This document shows, in pieces, positions 8,790-58,900 of a DNA stretch of 64,000 nucleotides (positions are counted from its first letter, which is position 1; each line of letters begins with the position of its first letter). Source of the DNA: Hymenopus coronatus (Eukaryota > Arthropoda > Insecta > Mantodea > Hymenopodidae); assembly GCA_030762935.1 (NCBI GenBank), contig CM060898.1, forward strand, positions 94,966,781-95,030,780, in the 5' to 3' direction. The position numbers and the translations under genes were made by a program. The notes below the pieces were generated by a model, which worked only from the letters and a program-made list of their open reading frames with translations, was not told the DNA's origin and made no database searches.

Positions 8790-9690
8790 GGTCTAAATGT
8801 TCCTTTCACATGGCTTTCTCAACCTGTTCTGCAAACAAATTACAAATTCCTAAAATAAAAAAAAATCATTTATATGCATCATGCTAATCGAGATAAACAT
8901 TGTCAGTAAGTGTCGTATTACTTGTTTCCTTATAAGCAGAAGGGAAATAAAGGAATACGTTGGATTAAGCAAAAGTTAAATCTTTTAAAAGCTGTCGCTA
9001 TGTGAACAATTGGAGTTCGGTTCGCTTTGCATTGCCAGCAGTAAAAACAAAAGAGAGGTGAAACGAAATGTGACACGTTTAAGAAAAGTTAATAGTTTAA
9101 AATTGAAACAAATAGGAAAGAATATCTTGGAAACAGTGAACTCTACAACAAAAATATATGTAGCACAAATTGTGTGTTTTTAACGAGGTTCACATTTCTT
9201 TATTTTCCCCCCTTTTTTCAATAGATTTTTGTCTATTTCTTACAGTTTATCAGTCATGTAAAATGCATCTAAAATGAAGAGGTCTTCAAAAGTTATTCCT
9301 GGAAAGTTCAAGACGTACATTTTATTCGGGATGTAAATAGATTTAATATCTGGTATTTTAATCAAAATCCTTTTCAAAAATTTTTCCATGTAAAGAGTAG
9401 TTTGGGGTGGGGGATTTTCTTGTAAATCTTCGTGTCGTATCCTTGGAAGGTATTAAACTTAAATACCAAGTTTGGTATTTAACAGTCTTTTAGCTTTTAA
9501 GCTATGCTATTCACAGACACACTCACGCATACGCGCTGTCCACATACACACACGTGAAGGCGGACCTTTTTCTAAGAATTTGTTTTTTGTACTCGGGGAA
9601 CTTAAAACATATATTTCCGGCGAAATCTCGACTTCAATTTTAGTGTATTCTCTATACACTATTTACATAGTACGTGTAGAGCAAGCAATA
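8790..9690 (+). repeat. Dispersed repeat family R, near full length
   Basis: Starts TGTTCCTTTCACATGGCTTT, carries the GGGTGGGGGATTTTCTTGT block at about 9408, and ends at the palindromic TTTACATAGTACGTGTAGAG segment. Confidence 0.72.
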
Positions 9691-24300: not shown

Positions 24301-25725
24301 TGCTGTGTTATTTGTTTTCTTAGTGCTAAAGAGTGAAAGCAGGTAAGAGCTTTCAAAGATGGCCGAATGAATGTTCATGACAAGGCATGGAATGCATGAC
24401 CCTCAGTGATCCAACCATCAGAACTATGACCTTGAAGGACAATAATAGGGAATAGTGGGCTCAAAAATGCTGCACTTCTCCTCATGTATGACTACAGGTG
24501 ATGTGAAGACTCAAACCTCACTGTCATATTTATTATATAGCCAAATGACAAACCTGGTGGAATGCTAGTATGTTGATCAGCCAACAGGACCCCTCCATAG
24601 ATTTTAAAGTTTCAGCAATCAGGGTTCAGACATTGTGATGTCTTGAGAGCTGTAATGTATCACCAAAAGGATGTAATGGATTAATTGTTTTTCACACAAG
24701 CCGTGTGTAGGACAGGAGTTGGATAGTAGAGTGAGAATGAAAAATTCAATGCCATAGCCAGGATTTGAACCACGGATCTCCCGATCTCTAGCCGATCGTG
24801 GAATTTCTCAGCCGACTCACATGTTTCCCAGTAAACCACAAGGTGATCTCAAATTATTTTTGATCTGAAATGCTATGCCGGCATGTTGCCATGGTAGCTC
24901 AGTGGCAGAGCAACTGGCTGGTGTGAAAAACAATTAATCCAATACCAATTGACCATAATAGTCGGCTATACTATGAATCCTGGGACTTAAGTACTTGCAG
25001 CATTGTGGGTCGCCATGGGGTTCTCATCTCAAAAATAATTTGAGATCACCTTGTGGTATACCATGAAACATGCGAGTCAGTTGAGAAATTCAATGCTATG
25101 CTGGCATGTTGCCATGGTAGCTCAGTGGCATAGCAACTGGCTAGAGATTGGGAGATCCGTGGTTAAAATCCCAGCTATGGCATTGAATTTTTCAGTCTAA
25201 CTCTACCTATCAAAAAGGATGTAATTTCAAAATACTAAAATTACCTAGAGGAGAGATAAAGTGCAGGTAAAAAATAAATGTCTTACAATAGCATTAAATA
25301 GCAGATATTTCACTACTGAATAATGTATCATTCCATTTACAAAATGACATTCAATTGTTGGGCTGATGATTACAGCTGGGTGCCAAACTTTAGAGCTTAC
25401 GAATAGTACATATGGCAATAGTGTGCTTTACTTAACCCATGCTGTCTTTTAAGCACTGGACATGCTTTAGTTAAAACAGTTTATAGGAATTATATAAATA
25501 TAAGCAATAGTGGGTAGAGAAAGTTATGTGAATGCAGCACATTAGACTTTTCAAAGCTTACATAATATGTAACATCAGTTGCAGGACAATGGAAATGTAA
25601 GTGAAGACAAAGAAGCACCCCTTTCAACAGTCACAGTTGAGCTTTCAAGGTCTACGCTTGATACACTGCTTGATGGAATGGGACGGATTCGAGATCAGTT
25701 ATCTACTGTTGCTGGCAGAAAGTGA
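15250..25725 (+). CDS. COMMD9: COMM domain-containing protein 9, last two coding exons (5' part not found)
   Basis: Two exons, 15250-15361 and 25585-25725, join in phase 0 to encode 83 residues plus TGA. The first carries PPRLVDFSCQV and ends TPSCLLQLK. The second carries STVTVELSRSTLDTLLDG and MGRIRDQLSTVAG before the stop. This order and wording match the COMM domain of COMMD9, where vertebrate proteins read PRLVDLDW..., PTCLLQMK and TVELSKETLDTMLDGLGRIRDQL. COMMD9 is a subunit of the CCC part of the Commander complex, which works with retriever and WASH in endosome-to-surface recycling; the COMM domain mediates heterodimerisation. The exon(s) for the N-terminal helical domain were not recognised in 1-15249 and may lie outside the window. 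The intron (15362-25584) is filled with repeats. No stop or frameshift interrupts the two exons. Confidence 0.88.
16095..17158 (-). repeat. Dispersed repeat family R, interrupted by a SINE
   Basis: From GGTAGAGAAACTATTACATT to the far end ATGGAACATATCCGATTTTT; SINE family 2 sits at 16725-16987. Confidence 0.68.
16725..16987 (-). mobile_element. tRNA-derived SINE, family 2, inside a dispersed-repeat copy
   Basis: The minus strand starts CCCGCCTGGATAGTGTGGTG with A-box-like GATAGTGTGGTGGTAGCG and B-box GAGTTCAAATCTC. The body contains CCCTTATCCTGAGAAGATG and GACCCCGAGATCATTTGATC. It ends in a T/G-rich simple stretch (poly-A-like on its own strand). It splits the dispersed repeat at 16095-17158. 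Confidence 0.7.
18040..18575. repeat. Dispersed repeat family R, two opposed partial copies
   Basis: 18046-18262 is a plus-oriented start (ATCTAATGTGTTCCATTGAC). About 18300-18575 is a minus-oriented end of the same type, finishing AACACATCAGATTTTTTTAT. Head-to-head arrangement with the middle missing. Confidence 0.55.
19021..19975 (+). mobile_element. LINE RT C-terminal half, decayed
   Basis: Starts at CVSQGSILGPLLFLVYINDL (motif B), then YPVIFVDDTSIII (motif C with F.DD), followed by the decayed post-RT region and a short intact frame KGVYYKGIFLFNSLPSSIKE typical of LINE 3' ORF ends. A 5' truncation is clear. Confidence 0.8.
20540..21362 (+). mobile_element. Mariner remnant (SETMAR-like transposase, decayed)
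   Basis: Plus-strand frames read KVCTRWVPRQLTDEHKIK, then a decayed first catalytic block, CLCMTMQDSIQPTPH (an out-of-frame version of LLHDNARPHTA), WEIFDHPPYSSNLATD in place of HPPYSPDLAPSD, and a tail with YMPQQWW and DYVEK. The sequence around 21328-21362 resembles a mariner inverted end (CATCGGAACTTACTCTCTG). The 5' end was not found. Many stops; dead. Confidence 0.75.
21505..22945 (-). repeat. Dispersed repeat family R, two copies head-to-tail
   Basis: Copy one 21505-22290, copy two 22291-22945, same orientation. At the junction the end motif (AATATAACATATCGTATTG) runs straight into the next copy's TTTTACTTTCTCTCCCACAT. Confidence 0.68.
23030..23628 (+). repeat. Dispersed repeat family R, well-kept 3' two-thirds
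   Basis: Starts ATCTGATATGTACCATTCAC, then jumps to the CGAACTCCACGAAAAAAATG block (an internal deletion of about 250 bp relative to the 58-kb copy). Ends with the palindrome GTACACAGTGCGTATGGAGA. Confidence 0.7.
24262..24440 (+). mobile_element. Mariner N-terminal fragment
   Basis: ATG at 24262 opens MPPLIENPADCEECCVICF, then after a stop VRAFKDGRMNVHDKAWNA. These are two parts of the N-terminal DNA-binding region of a mariner transposase (usual wording ENPADCEVRAVIRFLSAKG ... VRAFKDGRTNVHDEERSGR) joined by an internal deletion. No catalytic domain remains. Confidence 0.65.
24683..25215. mobile_element. Foldback element with tRNA-like arms (larger relative)
   Basis: Outer arms: GAAAAATTCAATGCCATAGC at about 24747 and its inverse at about 25170-25190, continuing through the ATCTCCCGATCTCTAG / CTAGAGATTGGGAGAT pair. 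Inner arms: CACAAGGTGATCTCAAATTA (24838) and its inverse (25040). A third tRNA-like segment (GCCATGGTAGCTCAGTGGCA) occurs twice, at 24889 and 25110. Same termini as the element at 57.6 kb. Confidence 0.65.
25585..25725 (+). CDS. COMMD9: COMMD9 last coding exon
   Basis: Acceptor ATCAGTTGCAG, then 46 codons and TGA at 25723-25725. Encodes the C-terminal COMM-domain strand and helix. A variant polyadenylation signal ATTAAA lies at 25835-25840. Confidence 0.88.
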   Translation, partial: DNGNVSEDKEAPLSTVTVELSRSTLDTLLDGMGRIRDQLSTVAGRK

Positions 25726-33849: not shown

Positions 33850-34597
33850 CAAAGGAAGAATTAATATAGAAAATATTTCCAAATAGTGGTGCAAATTACA
33901 AAAACTATGCTTGGTTGAGCGAACGAGCCATTTTAACGGCAACTAACAAGACTGTAGAAGATTTGAATATACAAATTCAGAGTATAACTGATGGACAAAT
34001 GTATTCATTTAAGTCCGTCGATTCCATCAGCGATCCTAAATTCATTGGATTTGCCAGATTTATCACCACACACTTTACAGCTAAGGTTGACTCGGTGATA
34101 ATTATGCTACGCAATCTCAATCAGCCGAAATTGTGCAACGGAACAAGACTTGCTGTTAAAAAATTATGAAAATTTTGATTTAAGCTACTATAATCATAGA
34201 AAAGAACAAAGGCGAGGATGTACTTATTCCAAGAATACCACAAACGCCAACCGACTTTCCTTTTGAATGTAAGCGTGATCAGTTTCCGGTGCGCCTTGCA
34301 TCCACAATGACAGTAAATCCCAAGGTCAATCTTTAGAAGTGTGTGGAATATACCTTTAATTGCCGTGTTTTTCGCTTCGGCAGTTGTATGTTGCGTGCTC
34401 GAGTGTCGGCAAACCATCGGCGCTATTTGTTTTTCTCTTTGGAAGGAGAATTGTACATTACAAAGCATTACAATAAGGTATTGTCAAAATATTTAATTGT
34501 AATTTTATTTCATTACATGGTCGTACATTAAACGGAAGATTTTGTCTCAGTTTTGTCATTACTACAACACCCGTGCGAAGCCGGGGCAGGCAGCTAA
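33850..34597 (+). mobile_element. Helitron remnant: Pif1-type helicase C-terminus and 3' end
   Basis: Plus strand reads AWLSERAILTATNKTVEDLN, FKSVDSISDPK, VIIMLRNLNQPKLCNGTRLA, then after a stop KNKGEDVLIPRIPQTPTDFP and FPVRLASTMTVN, which is the order of the C-terminal helicase motifs of Helitron Rep-Hel proteins. It ends with a CCCG...CGGG hairpin at about 34570-34586 and CTAA|T at 34594-34598, the Helitron 3' signature (CTRR before T). A deletion follows ISDPK, and several stops follow. A SINE lies directly upstream. Confidence 0.83.
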
Positions 34598-35422: not shown

Positions 35423-35441
35423 ATGGCTTATATTTCTGCAA
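35423..35441 (+). CDS. SELENOK: SELENOK coding exon 1
   Basis: Encodes residues 1-6 (MAYISA) plus the first base of codon 7. The donor GTAAGT follows at 35442 and is a consensus site. The exon is only 19 coding bases long, too short for any ORF caller. The 5' UTR start cannot be fixed from sequence. Confidence 0.88.
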
Positions 35442-38400
35442 GTAAGTATAACTTGAGGACTATTTCCTGTAGTGTAACATATCTCATCGGGTACCTCTCA
35501 TCGTATCCGAAAGGAGGATATAACTTAATAATGTACAACACACACAAACTGGCTCAGTGGTTTGTGGCACGTTCAAACGGTGTAACTAATTAATTTAGCT
35601 TTTACAACCTACATTCTAGCATAGTTTAAGGAAAAACATGATAATTTATTTTAATTTGTTTCCGGAAGTTTCTTGACCCAATAAAGTTTTACATGCAAGA
35701 TTTGGAGATTTTCTAGTTAAATAGTAAGATAACACATTTTATATTAAAAATAAAACTTGAATCTATTAAAATTGTGGCATAATATACTTATTGAGCAAGC
35801 TCTTCAAGCATCTCATTAATAATTACAAGTATATGCTAAATCTCAAGGACACCCCAGCACATTTAGCTTTGTTGATGATGGTGAATAATGTCTTGTTTCT
35901 TCTCTTCTTTTTGCCATACAACACACATGTTTTATCTATTTTGTTTTACTCATAAATTAAACATAGCTAAAATACAAGTCATTTACAGTTTATACACATG
36001 CAATAAATTAGACTAACTTCATTATGAGGCTTTTCTGACAAACAAAATTGTGAACATTTAATCATTTTAAAATAATGTACCAGTAAATTTGAAATTTGTT
36101 TAATAATTAAAGCAGCTCAAGTTCAGCTTTAACAAGTAATCGGTCTCTTCTTGTTTTAGAGCAAAAATACTTGGTCAAGCTTATCAAATATTGTTACTTG
36201 TAACCTAAATGATCTGAAATAAAATAAACGTAATCAAACTTGGCGTTATTATACTTTGTGGTATTACATTATGGGAGGGATAAAATGCAGTACACCTTGA
36301 CTGAGGTGCAAACATATATTGTGATATTCTAGACTTAGTACATTTTTAAAGAGGACATTTTCTCTTACTGGAAGTCTAGAATTTTGAGATGATGCTACAG
36401 CATAAAACAATAAAACAAATGCAGTTGTAAATATACTTATAAGTTGCATAGTATGCAATATTATTTAGATAACACGTTCAAATTGTATACCATAGTGAGC
36501 ACCAGCCAGAAAGAGAGACTGATTGGAAAACATTGGAAGATTGTTTTAATGCTGTGCTCACAAAATTTTAAAAATGTTTTGAAAAATGGGTACAGTAAAA
36601 TCAGAGGGTTTACATACCCAGTATTAAATTATTTTTTATTATTTAAGAATATTTATTACTTTCTTGTTTATTTTTGTGTATGAGCATAAATATCTTAAAA
36701 TCAAACAAGCTCTTGCTGTTGGAATTGCTCTTATCATTTATGTATGTAAATTAGCCTTGTATTTATTTGGAAAAAAAAGAAAGAAAAAGCATTGATAGTG
36801 AAATTCAAACTTCAGACTTTCAATCATAATTAAGGCTGCATCAGGTGATCATAGGATTTATCAGATTTCAAGCTCTAAAATAAAACAGAATCATCCTAAT
36901 GTGTATTTCCTTTTGGTAATTATGCAGAAAATGGATCACTTGAAAAATCAAATAAACCAAGTGCGATTGATGGATCTTGTATTTGTGATGATTTCAAAGG
37001 TAGGTTTTATTTGGCTTGGTTTTTTATTATACACACATTTGTGTGCATGCTGGAACAGTTGGTATTTTGCATATATGATGATGATATTTACCAAATAATT
37101 ATATATAAACAATTATTATATAAATAATAAATGGCTTTATAATGTTCAGAAACATTTTTCTCTGCCAACTACTACCACAATAGAAAATTATAAATATAAA
37201 TTTATATATGCACACCAACCTTAACGGATTCGAACTGAACCTTGCGCTAAATCTGAAAACCACAGGACTCAGTGGTTTCACCTATAGAAACGATGAAATA
37301 AAAACCAAATCCTCACAGAAACATACTCCTCCACCAACTACTATAGTCACATTAAGTGGAGAATTATTCCCATGGATGCACACAATGCTGTAATCTTGCC
37401 AAGAGCAACATATGTTTTTGCATACCAATAGTTACAGAGTCTTCCACTAGCAACAAAACCAAGCTTTTTCATTATAAATTCAGATTTTATGCAAGCATTT
37501 CAGCATTTACACATTATAAAACAATTTATTATTCATATAATACTCGTTTTTGTATAATTATTAGATAAATAATCATCATATATGCAAAATACAACCATCC
37601 CAGCATGTGCATAAATTATCTATAATAAAAAAAAAAAAAAACAAGCTTGACCGACAAATAAAACCTTTGAAATCGTCATCACAAATACAAGATCAATCAA
37701 TCAATCACACTTAGTGTCATTTGATTTTTCGAATCTCGATTTCATCCTAGGGTCCTTGTAAATGTGCTTTTGTTTTCCTTTGGGATTAAAGTGGCATGTG
37801 CCTGTGATCAAATATCCTCCAATCCTTCAACTCCTCTAGAATCCTAAAGGCCACGAGTATAAAATTTAGAACTTCCTCTCTCTGAAAATTAAGTCTAGTA
37901 CTGAACTCCTGAGGAGGTGGAGGTTTCTCAGTGTCATAAAGGAAATAGGCTGAGCAGACTACCACTTGCCATGGTAGCCCACCCACCTCATATCTCATCA
38001 TGACTGCCTCCAGGTCCCTCATTAGAAAGATTGGTAGAACCCATGCGTTCCAATGTCTTGTCAAGACTCATGCTCCGGGTTTCTGTTGGCTAAATGTGGA
38101 AGTCCCATAATTCAATCTTATCTAAGCCAAGGTTCTTGTATTATGGCAACTTCCATATTCTGCCTTGTGCTACTACATAACACCCTAGAGGCAGTAATAC
38201 TCTGTTGGAGGTTAGCCTGAATGAAAGAAATCATTTTGACCTTCCATCCCAAAGACATAATTGCTTTCCCTTGCAAGACCTTTTCTGGATATGGAAACCC
38301 AGTTATCTATAAGGGGATCTCATGGGATACATATTTTCCTGTTTTAGAGTGCAAAACTCTGCTCTCCTATTAATTGAGGGAATATCTCTGTCCCTGTACC

Positions 38401-41400
38401 TCTTTTGGAGGATAGGCCAGGCATGACTCCACTGTGCTTTCTGGAGGATCCCTTGAGAGAGAGAGAGAGGGGGAGAGTAGAAAGGGAGGATGAGGGAGGG
38501 GAGAGACACACACACACACACACACACACCTCACCTTCTACCATCTGCTTGCCCAGCCCTTCTGCTCCAGGAACCTTTTTTTTTTTTACTTTAATTTTAG
38601 GATACTAACCATCTTAGTCAGTTCCCCCAAACTGTACATATGGTGTTTAGCATAAGGAGGCTTAGTTGCTCTTCCACATATCTGGAAATTGCAGATCCCA
38701 CCTCCCTTCCCAGAAGGGACATTGTTGTTTGGAACTACATAATTCAATTTTATGACCATGGCATATCTATGGTATTCCCAGACAGAGCCCCAAATTTTTG
38801 GGTAAGACTAAGGGGAGGGGTCAGGTAAGCCAGAGGCTCCATTAATGGCTAATTTCCCATGTGCTATACACTCTATTGGCATTGGTCTCCTAACACCTCC
38901 CTGGCCTTAACACTTTAGGGTTGGGGAGTTGGTTTTTAGTCTCCTATTGGTTATTCGAAGACAGGCCTGGCCAGGTACTGGCACCTGCAGATGCATCCAT
39001 AACCCACTAAAGGTCCAGCATTAAGGGCTTGCAGGTCGCTAAGCTGCTCCAGAGGCACCCTGTTGAACCATTGGACAGAGAAATTGACCAATGAGATCAT
39101 CACACTAAGGAACATCCAAAATTGTACGTTCATTCCATCATTCACTTTGAGAAATTGTGAAAAAGGTAATCATTAATTGTAAACCAGTCACTCCTGAAGT
39201 ACATATATGCCAAAATTAAACAGCAAGTACATTAATCCTGGAAAATGAATAAATCAGTTTTGTAGTCTAAGTAAACATATTTTTAGAGAAAAATATATAC
39301 ATATAAAAAGTTATTAGGAAACTAGAATTAAATCATTACAAATATAAAACATAAACTATATTTTTCTTTAATTTTCTTTTTCTCAGGTGGAACTATTCAA
39401 GATAAGCCTACATGGAGCATAGGAAGAATTGTCAACTTGTTTTGGGGCTTCTTGAATCTTGTATTTATGTTGTAAGTGGATAAATTACAATTCTCTTAAA
39501 ATTTGAAGTTTCAGAATCCTCTAGAGTAGTCAGGCAATAGTCACTTAGAAAAGTATTTTGATCAATTAACTTTTTCCCTCTTTGGTTTTTTGAAACAGAC
39601 TTTCTGTGTGTGAGTCTCCTTTGTATTCATTTATTCTATTAATGGAAAATAAAGGTTGATTACTTGTTTCAATATAAATTTCTTACATCATGTATATAAA
39701 AATGTGATATTAAGATTCATATATTGTAAATAATTACCAGGAGTCTTGCATGAAGTTGAAAAAGCCAAAAAATATAGAGTGTGATCTGGTGGAATTAATT
39801 TTGGAAAACATGTACTAAACAATGAGGCCCATTTAAAATGTTCATTTTGAATAGAGCATTAACTATGTTTGATGTTTACAAATGACAATTGAAAGCTGTG
39901 GTTGGATTCAATATTATGAGAGAAGGAGAGAGAAAGAGGTGCATGGGCAGCTTGATCTAAGTATTTTAGGTGCTCTGACATTAAATGGAGATGCTGTTTA
40001 TGGTTAAATAGCTTTATTTATATGCACACTTTTTGTACCCTTGCTTGTTAGCCTGTTTTAGTATGATTCAACCACACTAAACATTTATATTTTTGCATCA
40101 ATGGCCACACTTGTGAGTTTGCGATAATATCTCTTTATCATCAGGAACACATTTTCCAGATTATTCCACTTTTGTGATGTCATCAGAAAATGCAGCAATG
40201 AAATAAAAGAAAATATTAAATTTTGACCAATCATAGTTATCTTAGACAATAACTCCACACTAGAGGAAGAGTGTTTTCCAATAAGACTCAGTATGCAGTG
40301 ATTTTGCCATTTGGCTAAACTTCAATGGAAGATATTATTTTATAAATGATTCCAAACACAAAAACATGGAACTTCACTTTGTAAATATATAGTTAATTTT
40401 TGGTTAGTATATTTTAGATTATCTCACTGAATTTTCTAGGTTAAGTAGTGCTGATTATTATTTCTGCTCTCAGCATAACTGGCACAACAGATCTGGACAT
40501 GTGAAAATCTTAATGAGAGCTAGGAAGCGAGTTGTTCTTTCAGATAAGCAGTTCACCAGTCTATTCATGCATGTGCTGATTATTATTTCTGCTCTCAGCA
40601 TAACTGGCACAACAGATCTGGACATGTGAAAATCTTAATGAGAGCTAGGAAGCGAGTTGTTCTTTCAGATAAGCAGTTCACCAGTCTATTCATGCATGCT
40701 GGAAGAGTGCCTGTCACAATCAATGTCAAATATCTGTCATCTCTTATGCACCTGCACTATATGGCACTGCCTTAATAAACACATATGTGTTTTCATATGT
40801 ATATTCATATCTACAAAACATATACAAATGGCCTACTATATAAACAATGTCAATTGTCTGCCTCCAATTCTTCCACACCTGACAGTCCTTCGTCTTTGCT
40901 CATGTCAGTCATCATCAATGCTATCGCTACTTTCAGCACCATTATCCTGGATTAGAATTCTTTTTGATTTTCTACAATTCTTTCTAACGATTTTCAATGT
41001 TCTCAACATGTCGACATACATTTTCCCATTCTGGCCTGCCAATTTCTGCAATTCGCTGGCGACAACTCTTCCACATCTTTTAATTTAAAAGTGCCATATT
41101 AAGTTTTATTTCTCTTTCTTTCGTATCTTTGAGAACCCTGGAAACGAAACTCGGTGAAATATTAGTTGCCTTGGCTATTCTTTCATTCACTTTCTACGGG
41201 CTTTTGAAGAACTCGGGGAACATACATTTTCTTCCTTCATCTCTGCCTCTTGTTTCATGAAGTCAAGGACATTTGCAATTATTTCTCTGCTCTGACTAAT
41301 ACCTTGCCACTTAACTTTGAAAACGTAGGAGCCATGTTAAAAAGTAAAATAAATAAAATGAACACCATTTATTGCCCACTTTGAATAAAACATATGCATA

Positions 41401-44400
41401 GCACTTTTGATACAGACTCTACAAAGTTTACATGCTGTGACTTTAAGTAAGCAACGTATCATATCACAGACTCCAATAAGCTAGGCTCCGTAGCTGGGTT
41501 GGGGGGGGGGGGGGTCAGAGTTACGATTCCAGAAGTTTTGCACCGGCAATAGTTGGCAACAGCCTATAGTATTTATCATTTAGTAGGTCATTATACATAG
41601 AGGTTTGTTTTAACTAATTTTAACTAATATGCTTTTCATGTGTTTATAATAAATATTATTTTAGTTAGTTAGAAATTTTATTTTGTCAGTTACTTATTGT
41701 GAGAGAGGTAGCCCATACATCTTTGTGCAGTATTATCAACTAAAGAAATTGTTTCTTTCTTTGAGGTCCTTAACCATTACAGTGAATAGGCTATCTGATT
41801 TATTACAAACTAACAAAATTATCAAACAAAACTCAGTGCATGTGTATGAATTTTGGGATCTACCGTAGCTTTGAAGTCACTAGGTATTAGGGTGTATAGC
41901 ATACTTCATGTCATACTTCATATCTCAGTGTTGGGTGTTATGCTTCTGAAATATGCAAAATTTACTGAATGAAGACTAGGGAAGAAAACATGCATGGATA
42001 GTACAGAAACTCCCAAATTAGTGCCTTTAAGTAATTCTGAAGTAAAAGCATTCTCATGGAAACTGATAACGATGACAAGATAACTCGTGTGCTTTTGAAC
42101 TCTTAATTTTTCAAACTTAATCATAGCTTGTATTGATATGCATACATTTGTTTCACTTACATTAGAGCTTAACTGCAACAACTTCAGTGAAAGTTTTCAA
42201 TTGTGCTGCTAAAAGGGATTGTTTCCCAAAGAATTTATTACTTTCTCCACACGTACTATGTACATAGTAAGTAGAGAAAATATTGTATTGCACCCAAAAA
42301 TTCAATGTCGAGATTTCATCCTAAATGCAACTTTTGAGGCCCCCTCAAAAAAGAAAGTCTGTTAAATACAAAACTTGGTATTTAAATTCACTATCTTCCA
42401 AGGATGAGAGACAAATATTTTCAGTAATGTACCCGCACTCCCCAAATACCTTTTACATGGAACAGTTTTTACAAATTTTGATTTTCTCTAAAATGGCTGT
42501 AATGATTTTTATTAAAATAGGTATTTTCGAGACATGTTTATAATATTTTAATGACAGAAAGTGTATGTCTTGAATTTTTAGGGAATAGCCTCTGACGACA
42601 ACTTCATTTTGGATGACATATAAATGGTAAACCGAGAGAAAGAGAGGGAGAGAGAGAAAGGGGGAGAGAGGGAGAGAGAGAGAGAGACTCTTTTTTGTAA
42701 AACACCCAATTTGTCTTCTTTTTTTGTACATTCCATTTCTAAAATATTCCTTGATATTGGTATCAATTTTAAACTAATTAAAATTGTTCTCAAACGGGAA
42801 TTCTTCATTCATGTCATCTATCTTTTATTTTGCTCCTGATGTTGCAAAGAGAACCACATTTCAATTGTTTCACATAGCATCCAGCTTTAAAAAATGATTT
42901 GATATTGCTTTAGTCCCTAGTGTATTTGCTATTTCTCTTCTGCTTACTAGGGAGCCAGTAATAAGACAATTTATGCTAATATTTATCTGGATTGGCATAA
43001 TTTAAATAAAAGAATAATTTTTTGGGAGAAAAGTTTGCTTGCAAAAGAGGTGGAGAAAGTCATGTGAATGACCCATGTCAATTTTTTTTGTTACTTTCTC
43101 TACATTTACTATGCATATACTAGGTAGAGAAGGTATTGGTTTCTGACCAAAAGTTTGATGTTGAGATTTCACCAGAACTATATGTTTTGAGGTCCCCTGA
43201 ATAATAATAAAAAAGCATTTTTAGTAAAGGTGGTGCATGTGTGCAGCATAGCTAAAAAACGAAAAGGCTGTAAAATGCCTGATTTGGTATTAAGGTTTAG
43301 TGTCTTCCAAGGAATATGACTTGAAGATCAAGAAAATTCCACCCTCTCCAAACTGCCTATGTATAGATATTTTTTTGAAAATTCTGTTTTTTCCAAAATT
43401 ATCTTTAATGGTTTTGTTTAATGTCATATGTTAAATATATTTACATTACAAATAGAATGTGTACTTGAATTTTCTGGGAATAGCCTCTGAAGAGCTCTTC
43501 ATTCTGGATGGATTTTGCAAAACTATTAAACCATAAATGATAGGCAAAAACTTACTTCACAAAAAATGTAAATTTATATCATATAATTTTTAATTTTTGT
43601 GGTGGTGTTTTATTCTGAGATATTTTCAAAGATTTGATTATTGCTTTAGCCTAATACATTTCCTTATTTCTCTTCTGTTTACAAGTAAATAATAGGGCAA
43701 TTTCTGATAATGTTTTTTGTTGATTAGCATGATGTAGATAAAAAATCTTTTGTAAGAATAGTTTGTTTACAGAAAAGGTAAAGAAAGTGATGTTAATTCG
43801 AACATATCAGATTTTTCCTATGAAAATTTATGATTTCAACAATTTTTAAATTATATTAAATTAATACAGAAATACAACTTATTATTTACTTATTTGAGTG
43901 TGGACTTAATGTACAGCTCCAATGTTAAATTACATTGGGGGGAGGGGGAGGAATGTTACACATAGACATTTTTAATACATTTTCAAAATATGAGTGCCAG
44001 CTTTTCGTTTTTATATAGCCCAGTATGTTTTCTGTGCACTATTTTTGTAATTACTTTATCATGTGCAACAGTTGTATCCTTACTAAACTCATTCTTCTAT
44101 GTGCTTCATGCTAATCAAGATAAACATTAGCAGAAATTGTTTTATTCTGTATTTCTGTAGTGGTGGTATTTTTACTTGAGAACAAATGATTACTTTCCAT
44201 TTAAGAATATTGAAAAATTTAAACCAAAAAAAGGAATATTTTGGAAATTGTTAACTCAAAAAAATGTGTCATAGATTGTGTGTTTTAACAAGATCTACAT
44301 TTTGTGTATAGTAAGATTTTGTCTACACCTTATGGTCAAAAGTCGTTCAGAATGAAGAGGGCTTCAGAGACATTCCCAGAAAATTAATACGTATATTATT

Positions 44401-47400
44401 CTAATCAAAATTGTTAAATGCATTTTTCAGAAAATTGAAACTTAAAAGAAAAAAAAAATCTTTTGGGCATAAAAGGTAGCTTGATCTAGGAGTGGGGGGA
44501 AATTTTCCTCAAATTCTTTGTGTCACACCCTAGAAAGAAGTTGTACTTAAATTCAAATTTGATATTTAACCAACTTTATATGGTAGAGTTATACTGTTCA
44601 TGTACACACATACATTTGTCTAAAAATGTTTTTTTAGATTCAGGGGTCCTCTAAATGTATTTCTGGTGAAATATTGGTGTCAAATTTTTTGGGAAAATGC
44701 AATACCTTCTGTATACAGGGTGATTCAAATATACTTTTACCACTTTTGGGGATGGATTCCTGACATTGAAACAAAAAAATATGTTCATATAATCATATGC
44801 TCCAAAACACTTTGTATTCACGTTATTAATTTATTAATGAAAGTCACCTTCAATGGCTTTCCGGATTCATCCTAATAACTTCATTTATTTATGCATTTAT
44901 TCATAAAAGGCTTTGACCCATTTTACCATGTAGAGTTGGCCTTGTGTTGCCATGGCTGATTGTTAACATTTGTCATTTATGATGTATAATACTTTCCCCC
45001 GGTACACTTACAAGCACTGTCTACAGGAACTTCACTCTAAACACTCTCTCAGACTTATTAGAAAATGTGTAAATAAAATGAAGCACATGGTTTATGCATG
45101 ATGCTCTTGCAGATTTTAGTTTCATTGTTCGAGATGCATTGGCTGGTATCTAGCATGACAGATGGATAGGCAGATCCATGGCCTGCACGTTCCCCCAGCC
45201 TCAATCCTTTGGATTTTTATCTTTTGGGGGCACCTAAAACTAGAGGTTTATGCAGCAGACAGCCTGGATGAAGAAACTCTTAATCTGCATGTCGTGTAAG
45301 CCTGAAAAATCATACGACACCAACTGGAATATTTGACATTCCATGCTTCGACAAGTGTATGCATGTCTAGAGGCAAGAGGAGGATATTTGGATCATTTTC
45401 TATGTGGTGTTTGTATGGAACACCAATGTCAAAAGTAGAATAAAGTGTCACTTTAAAATGTTTTGATTAATAGAATTTTGAGCCTCAGTAAATTGAGAAC
45501 AAAGGGTTTTGGGATATATGTTTATATGAACATTTTTTCTTGTTTTGATGTAAATAACCTGTCCCCAAACTTTGTATAAGTATTTTTGAATCATCCTGTA
45601 TACTAACATATTGTATGAGGTAGAGAAAGTAAAGTATACTAGAGTAACATAATTTCTGTGCTGTCTTGTAGCATAATGGATGCACAACTCTCATGAGAAT
45701 CTTCCTTCCTCTGTTAAATGTGAGTTCTTTTACATGTCAGTAAATATATTGACATGGGACTGTTGCTTTAAAGCACACTTAAAAACCATCAGTATGGGTC
45801 TGGTTTGAACCTGCGACCTTGGAATAGTAAATGCTTTGGTTAGTCGTTCCTTATGTTTACTAATACTGGTAAAATTCAAAGTCAGTAAAGTAGTAAGCTG
45901 CTATTCAAGAGAGTTAACTCAACATTTGCAGTATAAAACATAATTCTTATTTCAAAACAGAACTTGACGCTTGGTATTTTGAAAATTATATAAATCACAA
46001 GAAATAGATTACATGTATAAGATGTGATTGGATGTTTGTCGTTTGGTTTATAACAGAAAATAACTGATGCAAATTTGGAGGTGAAAGTTTGATTGGGCCG
46101 CTCTATAAATATACCTTTAGTTTTTAGTTAATTACAGCTATTGTTTTCTATTCCTTCTTGCACTTTAGATGATAGGTGTTATACTTGTTTTTCATTTTTC
46201 CAATGTAGAGAATAATTATTAAATATTATTTACTTAAATAGTCTTAAGTTTACTAATCATAACTTTTTATTCTTTTTATAGCTTCAAGACTTTAGTCAAT
46301 CCAAACTTTAACAAAAAGGGAAATGGCTACACAAGTGCAGATTTCAGACCAGGACCTAAGTGAGTTTCAGCATTTCAAAGTATTAGCTTTTATTAGAGAC
46401 AAATTTGCGTTTATTTATATTTCATTTTCCACTCTTTCCCTCTCCTTTTTCTAAAACTGGTATTTTTGGATTCAATGAACCTCAGAATGTTTAATTCTTT
46501 GAAATTATAATTGATATTAATTACATTAAAATGCAGTTTTTTGTTGTTGTTTTTTGTTTTTTTTAATTCAAACTATACGATGACAAGTTCCACAAGAAGC
46601 ATCAAATTATTACCTTTCTTCAGGGGATTTTTTTCCCCTTTAAGGTTTCACAAATGTTTCTTTTACCATTAAAAGCATTCTTTTCCATTGCTGTTTCTCT
46701 GACTTATTGACAACAGCTCATGTTGCAAATTATGATAATTCCAATTATCTAAGTGTTTACTTCCTCCACTACCTTAGAATTTTTAAGTTCATAGTCTCAT
46801 TCACAATAAAAATTAATTGAACTTTGGTGAACTTATTTACAATAGCTTAAGAGAAATTGTTTTACTAAAATGAAACACTTTTGCTTATTTCAGTCATCTG
46901 CCATTAAAAGAGGATATCCAAAACAATTATTATTATTATTATTATTATTATTAACACCTCTTAGTCAACAAAGCAATAACTTTCTTTAAACCATATTCAA
47001 AATTAATACTCAAATCTAAATTAATTTTAAATACCTGGGAAAGAGAAAGATCTATAGATAGCACTAGCCAGAAAGTGAGGATAGCATGGTTAAGAGCAGA
47101 AATATGAAGGCTAAAAGGACACAAAGTAAATGTTCATTATGTGGGGGAATGGAAGATGTTCAACATGTAATTTTTGATTGTAAGAAAACTAAGAAATGGA
47201 GAAAAGAAAATATATGGTCAAAAATGAATAGAGAATCCAATATAAATAAAATTATAGATAAAAACTGTAAGACATTGGGACAATATTTAGAAAAAGTCAA
47301 CAATAGATGGAAATGGACTATTAAAAGAAAAGAACTATAGTTCATGAGCATTTAGTAGTAGTGGTAATGATAGCTACTGTAATATATTTTTTTGTATAAC

Positions 47401-50400
47401 TTAAATTGTACTGCCCACTGAAAAAGTGGCCTGGGCCAAATGATGAGAAATGGTATTGGCAAGGAGGTGGTCAACAAATCTGATTATTTGGGGGTACACT
47501 AAGTAGTAAAGGTGATTGGAATGGGCAAAAGAGAATGACACTGGCTAAAGATAAAATTGCATTAAAAACTATCCAAGTATGCTTAGATAAATTACTAGGA
47601 ATGCAAATAAAATAGCTAGAGAGAGTTTATATATCTGTAATGGAGGCAAAAATGCTCTATGGGGTAGAGATATGGAGTTTGAAGGAAGGAGGCGCAATCA
47701 TGGATATAATCCATAGAAATTTTTGCAAACAAATCCTGGGCTTACCAAGAGCATCACCAAATGGAGTGGTACAAGCAGAATTAGCAGAATGGGAATTAGA
47801 GGGAAAATTATGGAAAGTGTGTTGAAAGTATTGGCTGAGAATTAAAAAATAAGAGGAACAGAATATTGTACATCAATGTTTGGTATTATAGGATTGATTA
47901 AATTAAAAAGATTCTTGGCTAAACAAGATAAAGGAAATTGTTACAAATTGGCTTTGGGAATGTGTGAAAAAGTTAGAGCATCACTACAAAATGGGTTCTG
48001 GAATGAAATTAGGTGAAGAATGGAGGATATTGAAAGACAAGAAATAATAGCAAGTTTCAATACAAAAAGCTCATTGGCATGGTATAAGAGATAAAAGTGG
48101 TCTGGAACAGGGGGAATTATATTGATATTTGGGATAAAGTAGCAAGAGAAGACTTTGCTTGGGCTAGAACAGTGGTGGTGAAATTGAAAGGCTTGAGAAG
48201 AGAGAGTGATATAGAGAAATGCCCCTTGTGTCACCTGAAGGATAAACAATGGCATATAGTTTTTGAATGTGAAAAAAATAGGATGCTTAGGGTGAGGATA
48301 GGGGAAAAAGAAATGGTCAACGTTACCAAAAGAAATTCACGTGAGAAAGTTAATGAATGTAAAATTTAGCAGAAACTTAACTGAAATTGGTAACTTTTCG
48401 GGTAGAGTAAGAGCCAAATGGATGAGGAAAATTAGTAAGCAGGACGAAGAAGAAAAGAAGAAAATTAAACACTAAGAGGTAGTATGTATTAAATTTAAGA
48501 TATAGTAGGACCCAATAGCTTAGCAACCATAGGGTTTTGTGCCTATTGGGCTCCAGGGTAAACAGCAATTCAGTGGAGAGACAAAAATGTGAGGAAATGT
48601 AAAATAATTTGTAAAATTTGTGAAAATAAATATTCATTCATATAGAGGATGCTATCAGGAAATGAAAGTTTTAAAAATCAGGAGGCATTAAAATTAATAT
48701 AAATGTTTTCATTAGATTGTCTTATATGTGCAGATGATCTCATAATTTTATCAGAGAAGGCAAATTGCAAATATTAGTGTATAGACTAGACCAAATTTGA
48801 CAGCAATATAAATTATCTTAATTGAAACTACAAGAAGTATGGTCTCTATAAGAAGAAATATCATTATTAGGATTAAAATTAATAAATAATAAGATATAAC
48901 AGGTTAAATATTTTAGTTATTTAAAATGTGACGTTAGCTATAATTATGATCAAGACTTATATAAATTACAACAATATTAAGTGATGCATGGAACAATTAG
49001 TAATTTGAAATTTACATATCAAAATGTTATAAAGTGATTGCTGTTCTGACCTTTTTATGGGAGTGAATCAAGGATTCATAAGAAAAAAGACGATCACATC
49101 CAAGTAGTAGAATGAAATTCCTAAAAGACACTAGATGATGTACAAGAAGGGACAGAATAAGACAAAGGCTAACACTAGACTCATCTTTGACATGGACATA
49201 CCATATTGAACACATTATCAGCAAAACAAACTCTATTATTTGCATATTGTACAGACTAAAAGATCTAGATTTAGATAACAGCTGTAAAAGAAGTCTTTAT
49301 TTTGTTCTCTTGCACCCTAATTTTCTGTATTTAAATGCAGCATGGTCCAATAACAATAAAGAACAGCTAAACTGTTTAGAAATCGTACAAAAGAGAGCTA
49401 TTAAAATACTTTATGGATTTAATATTTTAAAGCCTTCCATAGAAGTATTTAAGGAAACAAATATTCACTCGTACAAAACTAGATCAGTCAATCACATATG
49501 TATAGAATCAGTTAACTCTACCAAATATGGAATAAAAAGTATGCTACATAGCGCCACCAAAACATACAACAGTTTCCCACTTAACATTAAAGAATTATTT
49601 AACTTATCCCTATTTAAAAACAAAGTCTTCAAATACCTACTTGAGCAATTCCTAAAAATTTGACAACAGAAAATCCCTATGCATTAAGTTTAATCACACA
49701 CTCACACAAATTACGTTAAAAACTGTGTAAATGTAAATGGCATGTTTTTTATGGACGCTCTTTAACTACTGTGGTTCTCAGCGTCCCATTCTCAATTGGG
49801 CGTGAAAGACTGCTTAATTTTGCTCAGAGGCAAAATTATCAGGCTTGAGGTTCTTTTACGTGCCGTAAATCTATGACACGGGACCAACGGTTTTACTTCC
49901 CTTCCGAAGGAAGCCATGCTAAGGATTTTTGCACCCGAAAAAATCCATCGTCCTCCACCAGGTTTGAACCTGCAACCTTGGGTATATGAAGTTAGCATGG
50001 TAACCATTACACCATGGAGGGCGACTAAAAACTGTAATGTATACATATATACTCCTTTTTATATGTGTTAATGTGTTTATTTTATTCTTTGTATTTTGCT
50101 TACCACCTCACTAAAGGGCAGCCCCTACCTAGAGCAATATGCTCATTGGGACATTCTATGTAAATAAATAAATTAAAACCAAGGATCCAGCCTATTATGG
50201 AATTAAGCAATAAAATAACTGATTTTTTGGCCAAAAAGGGAAGTAAAATTATCACCAAACATCTAGTTTAATCCGTTTTTGCTCTATTAAAAGAATAAAA
50301 TCAAATAAGTACAAAAACAATATCGATGAAGAATACACAAGCAAAACATCAATAAAAGAAAAACAAAATTACAATATTTCTACATTACCAAGAAAATTTG

Positions 50401-51088
50401 CAGTAGCAACCTTCATACTACTACTGAGACATGATTGTTTACAAAAATACTTACACAGATTTGGCATAGCAGAGACTCCTATATGTCTTTTCTGTAACTT
50501 AAATGAAGAAATGGGTTGTGATCATTTTCTACAATGTTCGACTTTTACAGAAGATTACTACCTCCCAGCTAAATATTGGAGTGCAAGAAAACAAATGATT
50601 TCATTATCAAGTGTTTAACATTAGATACCAACCAACACTTATTTTCTTATAAAGCCTGGATGAGGTTTCTTATTGGATATTATTAACTGAAAGATGAAAC
50701 TTGCAATACACTGAAAAGATTTTTGCTTGCAGTTCACAGATCTAAAATCACATACCAAACTTTTGTATTATGTCTAGGCTTAGTCTTACTTCATGCCTAT
50801 GCTTATACTGCTTTATGTTCATCATATTATGTGAATGAGGCATTATTCTCCATTTCCTTAGTTTTCTTTGTCAAACCTCTTTTCAAAATCCACACATGCT
50901 CCATTTCCTATATATTATTTTACAGTTATTGTAGTCAAATTGCATCCCTTACATGAGAATAAATATTAATCTAATCTAAATGTGTTCTCTTTAGGCCTCC
51001 AAGACCTCCGCAGAGAAGAATGGGTGGTATCAACAGAGGTGGAGTGGACATGAGTGCTTGTGCAATGGGCGGAGGTGGATGAGGTTAA
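35423..51088 (+). CDS. SELENOK: Selenoprotein K gene (four coding exons, UGA recoded to Sec)
   Basis: Coding exons 35423-35441, 39387-39471, 46282-46359 and 50995-51088 join to 276 nt, giving 91 residues plus TAA. All introns have GT-AG ends, and the reading frame is continuous across all three junctions (codons 7, 35 and 61 are split). SelK is a small single-pass ER membrane protein; in mammals it acts in ER-associated degradation, calcium flux and as partner of the palmitoyl-transferase DHHC6. Visible features: a short N-terminus starting MAYIS, a hydrophobic helix at about residues 20-40, a Pro/Arg-rich SH3-ligand-like stretch (about 57-69) with the family RRMG motif (68-71), and a Gly-rich tail ending GGGG-Sec-Gly. 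The length matches the family (about 90-110 aa). Start context is good (A at -3, G at +4). The introns (3.9, 6.8 and 4.6 kb) are full of transposon debris, but all four exons are intact. Identity is secure from motif order and the recoding signal. Confidence 0.95.
35442..36939. other. SELENOK intron 1, 5' part: nothing recognised
   Basis: AT-rich; short open frames only, none with a recognisable motif. Confidence 0.5.
36940..37731. repeat. Large imperfect inverted repeat in SELENOK intron 1
   Basis: Left arm about 36940-37165, right arm about 37505-37731, spacer about 340 bp. Matching blocks: GATCTTGTATTTGTGATGA with TCATCACAAATACAAGATC, TATTTTGCATATATGATGAT with its inverse at 37574, and AATAATAAAT..TTTATAATG with its inverse. 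The transcript could form a long hairpin. Confidence 0.75.
37785..38320 (-). mobile_element. R1-clade LINE apurinic endonuclease fragment (SELENOK intron 1)
   Basis: Minus-strand frames read QANLQQSITAS, EVAIIQEPWL (the endonuclease QEPW motif), RHWNAWVLPIFLMRDLEAVM and GLPWQVVVCSAYFLYDTEKP, the start of an R1/TRAS-type ORF2 endonuclease. Stops in between. The stretch is richer in GC than its surroundings and runs on to about 38860, where I could not identify a domain. Confidence 0.68.
38455..38530. repeat. GA-rich then CA microsatellite
   Basis: GAGAGAGAG...GGGGAGAG followed by about 12 CA units; next to the R1 LINE fragment. Confidence 0.9.
39387..39471 (+). CDS. SELENOK: SELENOK coding exon 2 (membrane helix)
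   Basis: Follows a strong polypyrimidine tract ending TTTCTCAG and ends at donor GTAAGT (39472). Its 85 bases complete Ser7 and encode residues up to 34 plus two bases of codon 35. It carries the start of the transmembrane helix with the Trp/Phe-rich pattern IVNLFWGF typical of SelK. Confidence 0.93.
40448..40697. repeat. Exact 125-bp tandem duplication (SELENOK intron 2)
   Basis: Copies at 40448-40572 and 40573-40697 are identical in every base I compared, starting GTGCTGATTATTATTTCTGC and ending CTATTCATGCAT. Either a recent duplication or an assembly error. Confidence 0.92.
40850..41345 (-). mobile_element. Possible DDE transposase N-terminal remnant (SELENOK intron 2)
   Basis: Shifting minus-strand frames from 41340 downward give a helix-turn-helix-like series: MAPTFSKLSGKVLVRAEK, then KVNERIAKATNISPSFVSRV and LKDTKERE. 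This resembles the Psq/HTH start of insect DDE_3 transposases. Several frame changes; no catalytic part seen. The plus strand has a 143-codon open frame over the same bases (40657-41088), which I take to be its shadow. Confidence 0.35.
42238..43812 (-). repeat. Dispersed repeat family R, two copies head-to-tail (SELENOK intron 2)
   Basis: Copy one 42238-43090 opens with a 44-bp palindrome (ACACGTACTATGTACATAGT inside). Copy two runs 43091-43812. A GA-rich microsatellite (42630-42690) replaces part of copy one. Confidence 0.68.
44050..45640 (+). repeat. Dispersed repeat family R, split by the 44716-45598 transposon
   Basis: Left part 44050-44715 carries the AGTGGGGGGAAATTTTCCTC and TTTCTGGTGAAATATTGGTG blocks. 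The last bases (TTGTATGAGGTAGAGAAAGT) resume after 45600. Confidence 0.65.
44716..45598 (+). mobile_element. DDE transposon remnant with long inverted ends, TA duplication
   Basis: Inverted ends of at least 75 bp start CAGGGTGATTCAAATATAC at 44716 and CAGGATGATTCAAAAATAC (minus strand) at 45598. TA is duplicated at 44714-44715 and 45599-45600. Inside, plus-strand frames keep a DDE_3-like third catalytic block (SLNPLDFYLLG, then LEVYAADSLDEETLN). Only about a third of a transposase remains. The insertion splits the terminal palindrome of a dispersed-repeat copy, so it is younger than that repeat. Confidence 0.82.
45795..45860 (-). mobile_element. SINE family 1 fragment (box B region)
   Basis: Contains GGTTTGAACCTGCGACCTTG, matching the box-B side of the other copies; the rest is lost. 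Confidence 0.4.
46282..46359 (+). CDS. SELENOK: SELENOK coding exon 3
   Basis: Acceptor ...TTTTTATAG, donor GTGAGT at 46360; 78 bases. It completes Phe35 and encodes the FKTLV end of the membrane helix and a polar cytosolic linker rich in Asn, Lys and Gly, ending at the first two bases of Lys61. Confidence 0.92.
46925..46952. repeat. ATT microsatellite
   Basis: Nine ATT units. Confidence 0.9.
47050..48480 (+). mobile_element. Two LINE ORF2 tails with zinc-knuckle motifs (SELENOK intron 3)
   Basis: First piece (47086-47340): CSLCGGMEDVQHVIFDCKK, the CxxC-x7-H-x4-C knuckle near the end of LINE ORF2. Second piece (about 47600-48480): MEAKMLYGVEIWSLKEGG, IHRNFCKQILGLPRASPNGV, and another knuckle KCPLCHLKDKQWHIVFEC. 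Both are broken by stops. They sit in the same orientation as SELENOK. Confidence 0.68.
48700..49170 (+). mobile_element. LINE RT C-terminal fragment
   Basis: Broken plus-strand frames contain LQILVYRLDQI, VKYFSYLKCDVSYNYDQDLY and YGSESRIHKKKDDHIQVVE, the segment following the RT catalytic motif in a LINE ORF2. Distinct from the elements on either side. Confidence 0.6.
49160..49680 (+). mobile_element. LINE ORF2 C-terminal fragment with a 158-residue open frame
   Basis: The open frame 49187-49663 reads LTWTYHIEHIISKTNSIICI, LHPNFLYLNAAWSNNNKEQL, LEIVQKRAIKILYGFN and TRSVNHICIESVNSTKYGIK, the post-RT region of CR1/jockey-type ORF2 up to its natural end. It is the best-kept LINE piece here, truncated at the 5' side; catalytic motifs are absent. 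Confidence 0.75.
49750..50025 (-). mobile_element. tRNA-derived SINE, family 1 (full-length copy)
   Basis: Minus strand begins GTCGCCCTCCATGGTGTAAT with a box-A-like GGTGTAATGGTTACC and box B GGTTCAAACCT, then a body running to about 49750 (...AGTAGTTAAAGAGCGTCC). Two other copies in the window end alike. Confidence 0.72.
50190..50650 (+). mobile_element. LINE RNase H/zinc-knuckle tail fragment
   Basis: Plus strand reads LPRKFAVATFILLLRHDCLQ, LHRFGIAETPICLFCNLNEE and CDHFLQC, the CxxC...H...C end of a jockey-type ORF2. Ends 0.3 kb before SELENOK exon 4. Confidence 0.65.
50995..51088 (+). CDS. SELENOK: SELENOK coding exon 4 with Sec codon
   Basis: Acceptor ...TTCTCTTTAG. Encodes the Pro/Arg-rich stretch (PPRPPQRRMG), a Gly-rich tail and GGGG-TGA-GGT-TAA. 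The TGA is the penultimate sense position (residue 90), followed by Gly91 and the true stop TAA at 51086-51088. A Cys (residue 83) lies seven residues before Sec. Read with the standard code the protein would lose only its last two residues, so automated annotation would easily miscall it. Confidence 0.94.
51080..51082 (+). other. SELENOK: Selenocysteine codon (in-frame UGA)
   Basis: TGA sits between GGA (Gly89) and GGT (Gly91), the family position of Sec in the C-terminal GG-U-G motif. The next in-frame codon but one is TAA. Recoding is supported by the SECIS element downstream. Confidence 0.93.
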
Positions 51089-51164
51089 CAACTGCCCTCT
51101 GCATTCACAAGTGTCGTAGCTGTGAAGAGGGCAAATTACCTTTGTGTACTTTTTAGGATTAAAT

Positions 51165-51235
51165 GTTTCTACATATGATGTCAAACTTTAAACCCATATT
51201 GCTGGGAGGGTATTGACTGATGTTTAAAGTACACT
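51165..51235 (+). promoter_or_regulatory. SECIS element, form II, in SELENOK 3' UTR
   Basis: Core ATGA at 51175-51178 is opposed by TGAT at 51218-51221 (the non-Watson-Crick quartet). Between them helix II pairs GTCAA (51180-51184) with TTGAC (51213-51217), and ACTTT (51185-51189) with AGGGT (51207-51211), leaving one bulged A at 51212. The unpaired AAA follows at 51190-51192, 11 nt after ATGA. CCC (51193-51195) then pairs with GGG (51204-51206) around an 8-base loop, the extra mini-stem that defines form II. Helix I below the quartet is weaker, with two mismatches. It starts 92 bases after the UGA, within the working distance for eukaryotic SECIS. Function: recruits SBP2 and the Sec-specific elongation factor. 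Confidence 0.92.
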
Positions 51236-51318
51236 AAAGAAATCATTATTATAGATAATTCTGATCTTATATAAGCAATTTTAAAATATTAATGTTATAT
51301 ATAAACAATTATTAGTTT

Positions 51319-51392
51319 AATAAATTGTAAATAGTATGGAATATGAAAATGAAATATTTAATACAATTGTTTTTTTAAAATAATCAAATAAA
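51319..51392 (+). promoter_or_regulatory. SELENOK polyadenylation signals
   Basis: Canonical AATAAA at 51319-51324 and again at 51387-51392, both downstream of the SECIS. Either gives a 3' UTR of about 250-320 bases that keeps the SECIS in the mRNA. Confidence 0.55.
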
Positions 51393-51469
51393 TCAATTAC
51401 CACCATGAATTCATTGATTTATTCTTGAACATTTAGGAATATCATATTATTTTAAAGTGCAGTAGAGGT

Positions 51470-51660
51470 GGGAAAAATTTAATATACTGCTCTCACATGA
51501 CTTTCTCTTTTCATTTTTGCACAAATTATTCTAACAAATACTTATTCTTCTATCTACTTTGTGTTAATCAAGAGTAACATTTGCATTCATTATATAATTA
51601 TAGATTTCCATCCAGGAGTAAGGGATTTAGAGGAATACAGTAGGCTTTAGAGGATAATCA
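51470..51660 (+). repeat. Dispersed repeat family R, 5' fragment
   Basis: Only the start is present (TCTCACATGACTTTCTCTTT to the AATACAGTAGGCTTTAG segment). It lies just downstream of the SELENOK polyadenylation signals. Confidence 0.55.
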
Positions 51661-51691
51661 GATCAATTAAGAGTAAAAACATGGATTACAC

Positions 51692-52600
51692 TCAAACTTC
51701 ACTTACTTTGGACATGTTTTGGTGGCGGTTTCCGCCATTTTCAATGGAGATCACTGATGAACTCAAGGCAGCAGCCTGTGGAGGTATCTCCTCTGGATAG
51801 ATGAATTTTGAGACGAGTTCATTTGTTTGTGGTATGTCAAAATTTATGACCTTGTTTTTGTTTTTTAAAATTAATAGATTTTCCCAAACTGTTAAGCTAA
51901 TTGGATTCTGCATTAATTTTAATAACCTGTGTTCACTGTGAAAATTATTGTTTTGAGTTAAAAAATGATGTGCTACAGCTGAATTATTTGTCTGTTTATA
52001 TTTTAAATATCTCATGTGTTCTTTAAGACGTCCAATGTTTCTTTTTGTTTTTCCTATATATACCTTTTCACATTCCTTGCAGCTGATTTCATATATCCTT
52101 GATTGTTTCAATGGGGGGATTTTATCTTTTGTGTTTGTATGGAAGAGGTTTCTTAAATTGTGCTTATTAACTGGGGCTAAGTTGAAGTTCCATTTTTTTT
52201 AAAATCTTTTGAAATTTTTGGTGTGCCAAAGAATGGTAAGTGAATTTTTTGAGCTGGTTTCTTTTACTTTCTTTCATAAATTTATTAATCTTCTTCTTTA
52301 CCAAATGTTCTGTATAGCATTCTTTTGTGCAATTTCTATGATCCTATTAAGTTCTAATTTGTATTCCATTTGGCTTAATGGTAGGTTTACTGGTCTGAAT
52401 GCAAGACTTTCGATCATGGCGTGTTTGTGTGAAATTGGGTTGTAGCTGTTGTTAATTATGTATTATTCCATCTGTGTTTCTTTCCTATAGATTCCAAATT
52501 CTAGTTTGTTGTGGTTCCTGATTATTTTTAGGTCCAAGAAGGGAAGCATGCCATTTGATTCTTTTTCTGTCATGAATTTTATGGAACTGTCCTGAAGATT
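51692..52600 (-). mobile_element. Penelope-like retroelement, 3' half (RT end plus GIY-YIG endonuclease)
   Basis: From 52600 downward the minus strand gives a Penelope reverse-transcriptase end: SNGMLPFLDLKIIRNHNKLE, FGIYRKETQ, RPVNLPLSQMEYKLELNRII. A 139-residue open frame (52111-51692) follows with the GIY-YIG fold: RIYEISCKECEKVYIGKTKR then LKEHMRYLKYKQT and SAVAHHFLTQN. The paired Cys before YIG is typical of Penelope. The first motif is RIY instead of GIY, and the RT part has stops, so it is defective. The element inserted about 0.3 kb past the SELENOK 3' UTR in reverse orientation. The 5' part is missing. Confidence 0.87.
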
Positions 52601-58035: not shown

Positions 58036-58900
58036 AAAAAATCTGATGTGTTCCATTCACATGACTTTCTGTACATCTCTGCAACAAATTATTGTTAAAA
58101 AGCTTAGGCTTTTATTTACTTCATGCTAATTGAGACAACATTAGCAGAAATAGTTTTATTACTTGCTTCCTTGTAAGTAGAAGTGAAATAAAGGAGTACC
58201 ATAGGTTAAAGTGATAATCAAAAGCTGGCTACTATGCGACTGAAGTTCCTTTGTTTGTATGGACAGGAGTTGACAAAGTCCTGTGTGAGAAAAGTGTGTT
58301 TTGCAAAGCTGAAACCAAAAACAAGGAATATTTAAAAAACGATCAACTCCACGAAAAAAATGTGTATAACATAAATTGTGTGTTTTAATGTACTGTACAT
58401 TTTTTGTGTGGTAAGTTTTGTCCATCTCTTACAGTTTAGCAGTTATGCAAAATTCCATAAAATTCATGCAGAATAAAGTAGTCTTCAGAGGCTATTCCCA
58501 GAAAATTCAAGATGTACATTTCATTTTCAGGTAAATACCTCTAATATACATATTTTAATCAAAATCGTTAGAGCCATTTTTAAGAAAATCATACATTTTG
58601 AAAGAATTTCCATGTAAAGGGTAGTTTGGGGTGGGAGGATTTTTCTCAAAATCTTTGTGTTGCATCCCTGAAAGATACTAAACTTAAATATCAAGTTTGG
58701 TATTTTACCAACTTTTCGTTTTTGAGTTATTGTGTTCACGGACACATGGATATGCACACATGGACCTTTTTGTGAAAATTATTTTTTTGATACAGGGGAC
58801 CCTAAAACATATATCAAATTATATCTTGGTATCAAATTTTTGGGTGGAGTGCAATATCTTCTCTATACACTAAGTACATAGTACGTGTAGAAAAAGTAAA
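58036..58900 (+). repeat. Dispersed repeat family R, full-length copy
   Basis: Complete from AAAAATCTGATGTGTTCCAT to TACATAGTACGTGTAGAAAA; the best reference for the family in this orientation. It directly follows the foldback element. Confidence 0.75.

Follow-up and report, generated by a model that had tools for sequence, protein, structure and literature searches.

Can four very short exons, scattered over 15.7 kb of DNA littered with transposon fragments, form a complete selenoprotein K (SELENOK/SelK; PF10961; SelG in flies) gene, and is the in-frame UGA near its end read as selenocysteine (Sec)? This question was raised by an initial annotation of a 64-kb stretch of the host genome (C19:94966781-95030780; hereafter the window, with positions counted from its first letter). 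Our analysis leaves little doubt that the locus is a single-copy, intact SELENOK/SelK gene whose UGA is read as Sec with the help of a SECIS element, yielding a 91-residue product; it is probably a working gene, whose splicing, Sec insertion, topology and function we infer from sequence.

The gene model comprises four coding exons on the forward strand (35423..35441, 39387..39471, 46282..46359, and 50995..51088; 19, 85, 78, and 94 nt), which together give 276 nt in a single open frame and are separated by introns of 3945, 6810, and 4635 nt. The donors of introns 1 to 3 read GTAAGT, GTAAGT, and GTGAGT, and each acceptor is rich in pyrimidines and closes with AG. Exon 1 encodes MAYISA plus one nucleotide; exon 2 contains most of a predicted transmembrane segment; exon 3 was identified by both the Pfam profile and the genome search described below; and exon 4 encodes a proline/arginine- and glycine-rich tail, followed by the Sec codon, a glycine codon, and the stop codon. 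The translation runs for 89 residues to TGA (51080..51082, forward strand), which is followed by GGT and, one codon past the Sec TGA, by the true stop TAA (51086..51088, forward strand), so that the product has 91 residues with Sec counted. A possible polyadenylation signal, AATAAA, is present downstream as a sequence motif (51319..51324, forward strand, with a second at 51387).

The weakest piece of this model is exon 1, whose 19 nt do not suffice for a separate search and which the genome search with the joined protein failed to recover. Upstream of exon 2, four first-exon candidates were found in the window under the rule that they begin with ATG, span 10-43 nt, end in phase 1, contain no stop, and are followed by a GTRAGT donor; the exon chosen is the only one of the four that starts M-x-[YF]-[IVL], and the N-terminus of the SelK family is M-x-Y-I. 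An alternative splice was also judged by eye, from the donor GTTAAC at 51084, directly past the UGA, to an acceptor AG at 51155-51156; it would leave only 19 nt between the UGA and the SECIS quartet, and it was rejected because eukaryotic SECIS elements need a spacing of more than 19 nt after the UGA.

When the joined exons were translated with TGA as Sec and searched against protein families, the product matched the Pfam family SelK_SelG (PF10961) over the entire profile (1-86 of 86) with 72.7 bits (E = 3.9e-20; cut-off 23.3). The match spans residues 2-88; it stops two residues short of Sec (residue 90), and Sec itself is therefore not covered by the profile evidence. The only other Pfam line, DUF2417 (E = 0.24), fell under its own cut-off. 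A search of a large protein collection brought up no candidate with three 5-residue words in common with the joined protein, and a search of PDB sequences returned one chance-level match (E = 0.25) and no relative. The most hydrophobic 19-residue window (residues 18-36) has a mean hydropathy of 1.66, just above the 1.6 customarily taken as the threshold for a transmembrane segment, and the tail from residue 43 onward carries eight K/R against two D/E. One predicted transmembrane segment near the N-terminus, followed by a basic tail, would fit a single-pass membrane protein, as expected for this family. The SelK assignment made in the initial annotation is thus upheld by the family search, and the exon positions, the in-frame join to 91 residues, and the Gly-Sec-Gly end with both its Sec codon and its true stop were recovered as first described.

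The chance that these pieces had simply been picked by a reader from exon-like sequence and joined into something resembling a gene is negligible. Short exons spread over 15.7 kb do allow many combinations, but an E-value of 3.9e-20 over the whole SelK profile, with the parts in the right order, is far more than a choice of joins could yield, and the window's only SECIS match at E ≤ 5 lies directly past the stop of this gene; the SelK_SelG match has, in practice, already refuted that reading.

The SECIS element (51165..51230, forward strand) was recognised from its fold and from a match to SECIS_1 (RF00031) with 25.6 bits and E = 0.029 in a cmscan of positions 50900-52500 (1601 nt). This score falls short of the 35 bits that Rfam sets for gathering, and the element is accordingly absent from the scan at gathering level; a scan of the whole window gave five matches at E ≤ 5, with SECIS_1 (E = 1.2 over 4227 families) as the sole SECIS among them. 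The fold contains the quartet ATGA at 51175, a helix of 10 pairs interrupted by one bulged base, an unpaired AAA, the mini-stem CCCA/TGGG, and TGAT on the 3′ side, a layout that we take to be that of a form-2 SECIS. It lies 3′ of the SelK stop, with 92 nt between the UGA and the quartet. A SECIS descriptor run over both strands of the window matched all 10 of 10 helix pairs at this element only, although this descriptor was composed after the element had been seen and 8 of 60 simulated 64-kb windows also contained a 10/10 match somewhere. Since the core motifs are all present but the score remains under the gathering score, we call the element a probable SECIS, below a curated-level match. According to an excerpt of a study that includes tick SelK, the SECIS of that gene had an Infernal score of 19.62 in SECISearch3, with grade A, under a model different from that of Rfam (PMC6555942).

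The host genome (3,126,739,099 bases in 384 contigs) was also searched for the Sec machinery. For tRNA-Sec (RF01852), 53 of 251,788 first-look candidates were scored, and among the 39 matches listed, one was over the cut-off (C6:72753541-72753626; 74.5 bits); both cmscan and ARAGORN confirmed this locus as tRNA-Sec, with anticodon TCA. The other 38 listed matches (≤46.1 bits; 75-83 nt) are probably other tRNAs. At the loose threshold, RF01852 found matches in all 14 control genomes, over the cut-off in five of them. The SepSecS profile (PF05889) gave five collinear exon matches (C19:117358155-117383391; profile 20-312 of 389), one of which reads through a TGA; this profile also matches 3 of the 14 control genomes, including Bacillus subtilis, and is therefore not perfectly specific. 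The SECIS that had been proposed to follow the SelK stop is thus supported by both the RF00031 match and the core fold, though with 25.6 bits against the 35 required for gathering, and the Sec machinery that had been presumed for this organism is corroborated for tRNA-Sec and for SepSecS.

With the SECIS, tRNA-Sec, and SepSecS in hand, we infer that the UGA is read as selenocysteine. A real SelK gene in which the UGA now acts as a stop, so that translation ends after 89 residues and no Sec is inserted, would be in keeping with a SECIS score under the Rfam gathering score; however, a SECIS with a full core is found 92 nt past the UGA, a TAA follows just one codon further on, tRNA-Sec and SepSecS are present in the genome, and erosion of the SECIS by drift would be expected had the UGA become a stop. 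We consider this reading very unlikely. Slightly less credible still is the view that the locus is a relic, decayed or duplicated, and that the working SelK lies at another locus. The transposon fragments around the gene would suit a relic, but apart from the Sec codon the frame contains no stop or frameshift, all splice signals are intact, the introns argue against a processed copy, and no second clear match was found in 3.13 Gb.

This last point rests on a search of the genome with the joined SelK protein, in which all eight candidates were scored and five matches were obtained at E ≤ 10. Three of these correspond to exons 2, 3, and 4 of the locus described here (E = 1.7e-11, 1.4e-10, and 3.2e-10), and the other two are at chance level (E = 1.62 and 5.53); with no clear match outside this locus, neither a second SelK gene nor a processed copy was seen in the 3.13 Gb with this query. 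The Pfam SelK HMM found no match in the genome (28 of 28 candidates scored) and none in the 14 control genomes either, which we take to reflect exons too short for the HMM and not absence of the gene. With an octopus rhodopsin as query, 93 of 189 candidates were scored and 14 matches were obtained at E ≤ 1e-10; the top-scoring one had 37% identity and none exceeded 40%, which makes a cephalopod host unlikely. An opsin-like match with 37% identity to this query lies in a 401-residue open frame at C9:99026287-99026937. The 9,000 bases analysed of the last contig (23,808 bases) contained no ORFs recognisable as mitochondrial and no Rfam match over the gathering score.

The window contains 49 stop-to-stop ORFs of at least 90 aa, 20 of which were scanned singly against Pfam; five of these 20 had a match at E ≤ 0.01, each to a mobile-element domain. 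These five transposon-like fragments (6145-6453, reverse strand; 33870-34166, 47068-47337, and 50247-50615, forward strand; and 51695-52198, reverse strand; the last three under the Pfam cut-offs) resemble a mariner-type transposase, a Pif1-type helicase (Helitron-like), two reverse-transcriptase zinc-binding pieces, and a GIY-YIG piece; the Pif1 fragment also gives one weak Hobbit line. A dispersed repeat family occurs in both orientations at 191-1017, 9077-9532, 23046-23570, and 58036-58757, with copies approximately 61-93% alike. Intron 2 of SelK contains a perfect tandem duplication (40448-40697) of a 125-bp unit with 100% identical copies, which probably either arose very recently or reflects the assembly. 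Two tRNA-like sequences, at 25111-25182 (forward strand; 33.5 bits) and 16910-16981 (reverse strand; 25.3 bits), were found with a model whose gathering score is 29; ARAGORN calls neither, and they are perhaps tRNA-derived SINEs. The flanks of the window showed no Rfam match over the gathering score.

For the SelK gene itself, we propose that the transcript would be spliced from the four coding exons and that the ribosome would decode the in-frame UGA, one codon ahead of the true stop, as selenocysteine because the last exon also carries the form-2 SECIS, which would recruit the Sec insertion factors. The product would probably span the ER membrane once, with its short N-terminus in the lumen and its basic, proline/glycine-rich tail, which ends in Gly-Sec-Gly, in the cytosol. 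Homology suggests that it partners DHHC6-type palmitoyltransferases and the ER-associated degradation complex; portions of two published accounts describe mammalian SELENOK as working with the ER palmitoyltransferase DHHC6 (PMC12446660) and as bound, alongside p97 and Derlins, in the ERAD complex (PMC6555942).

The gene shares with known SELENOK/SelK the whole-profile match, the one hydrophobic segment, the basic proline/glycine-rich tail, the penultimate Sec codon, and the SECIS past the stop. Vertebrate SelK ends in Sec-Gly-Arg, whereas the protein described here ends in Sec-Gly. The two also differ in the layout of the last exon: a passage of PMC3316567 describes the stop-codon exon of vertebrate SelK as ending right after the stop, with the whole 3′-UTR in the next exon, while tail, stop, and SECIS here appear contiguous in one exon, as read from DNA. 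The likeness to other invertebrate SelK (e.g., Lottia, Capitella, and Ixodes) lies in the presence of SelK and comes from published listings, not sequences; the part of one such listing consulted gives the SelK selenoprotein for five of six invertebrates (Amphimedon, Nematostella, Lottia, Capitella, and Branchiostoma, and not Trichoplax; PMC3473315).

The gene is thus an unremarkable SelK in the form already known for this family, and the annotation problem that it poses is already published. Extracts of PMC12822975 indicate that errors in vertebrate RefSeq concentrate in families with a C-terminal Sec and that insect SELENOK has diverged strongly, and an extract of PMC2874816 mentions that human selenoprotein K was missed by an earlier gene-prediction method. 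Should the host come from a lineage whose Sec-containing SelK was thought lost or had never been recorded, which we regard as improbable, the gene would shift the date of a supposed loss, and the last exon combining tail, stop, and SECIS would be a mark of the lineage. As it stands, the locus leaves the published picture unchanged and provides a plain example of how genes with a penultimate Sec may be truncated at the UGA by standard annotation; it also adds a genome to those in which SelK is intact and the Sec machinery is present at least in part.
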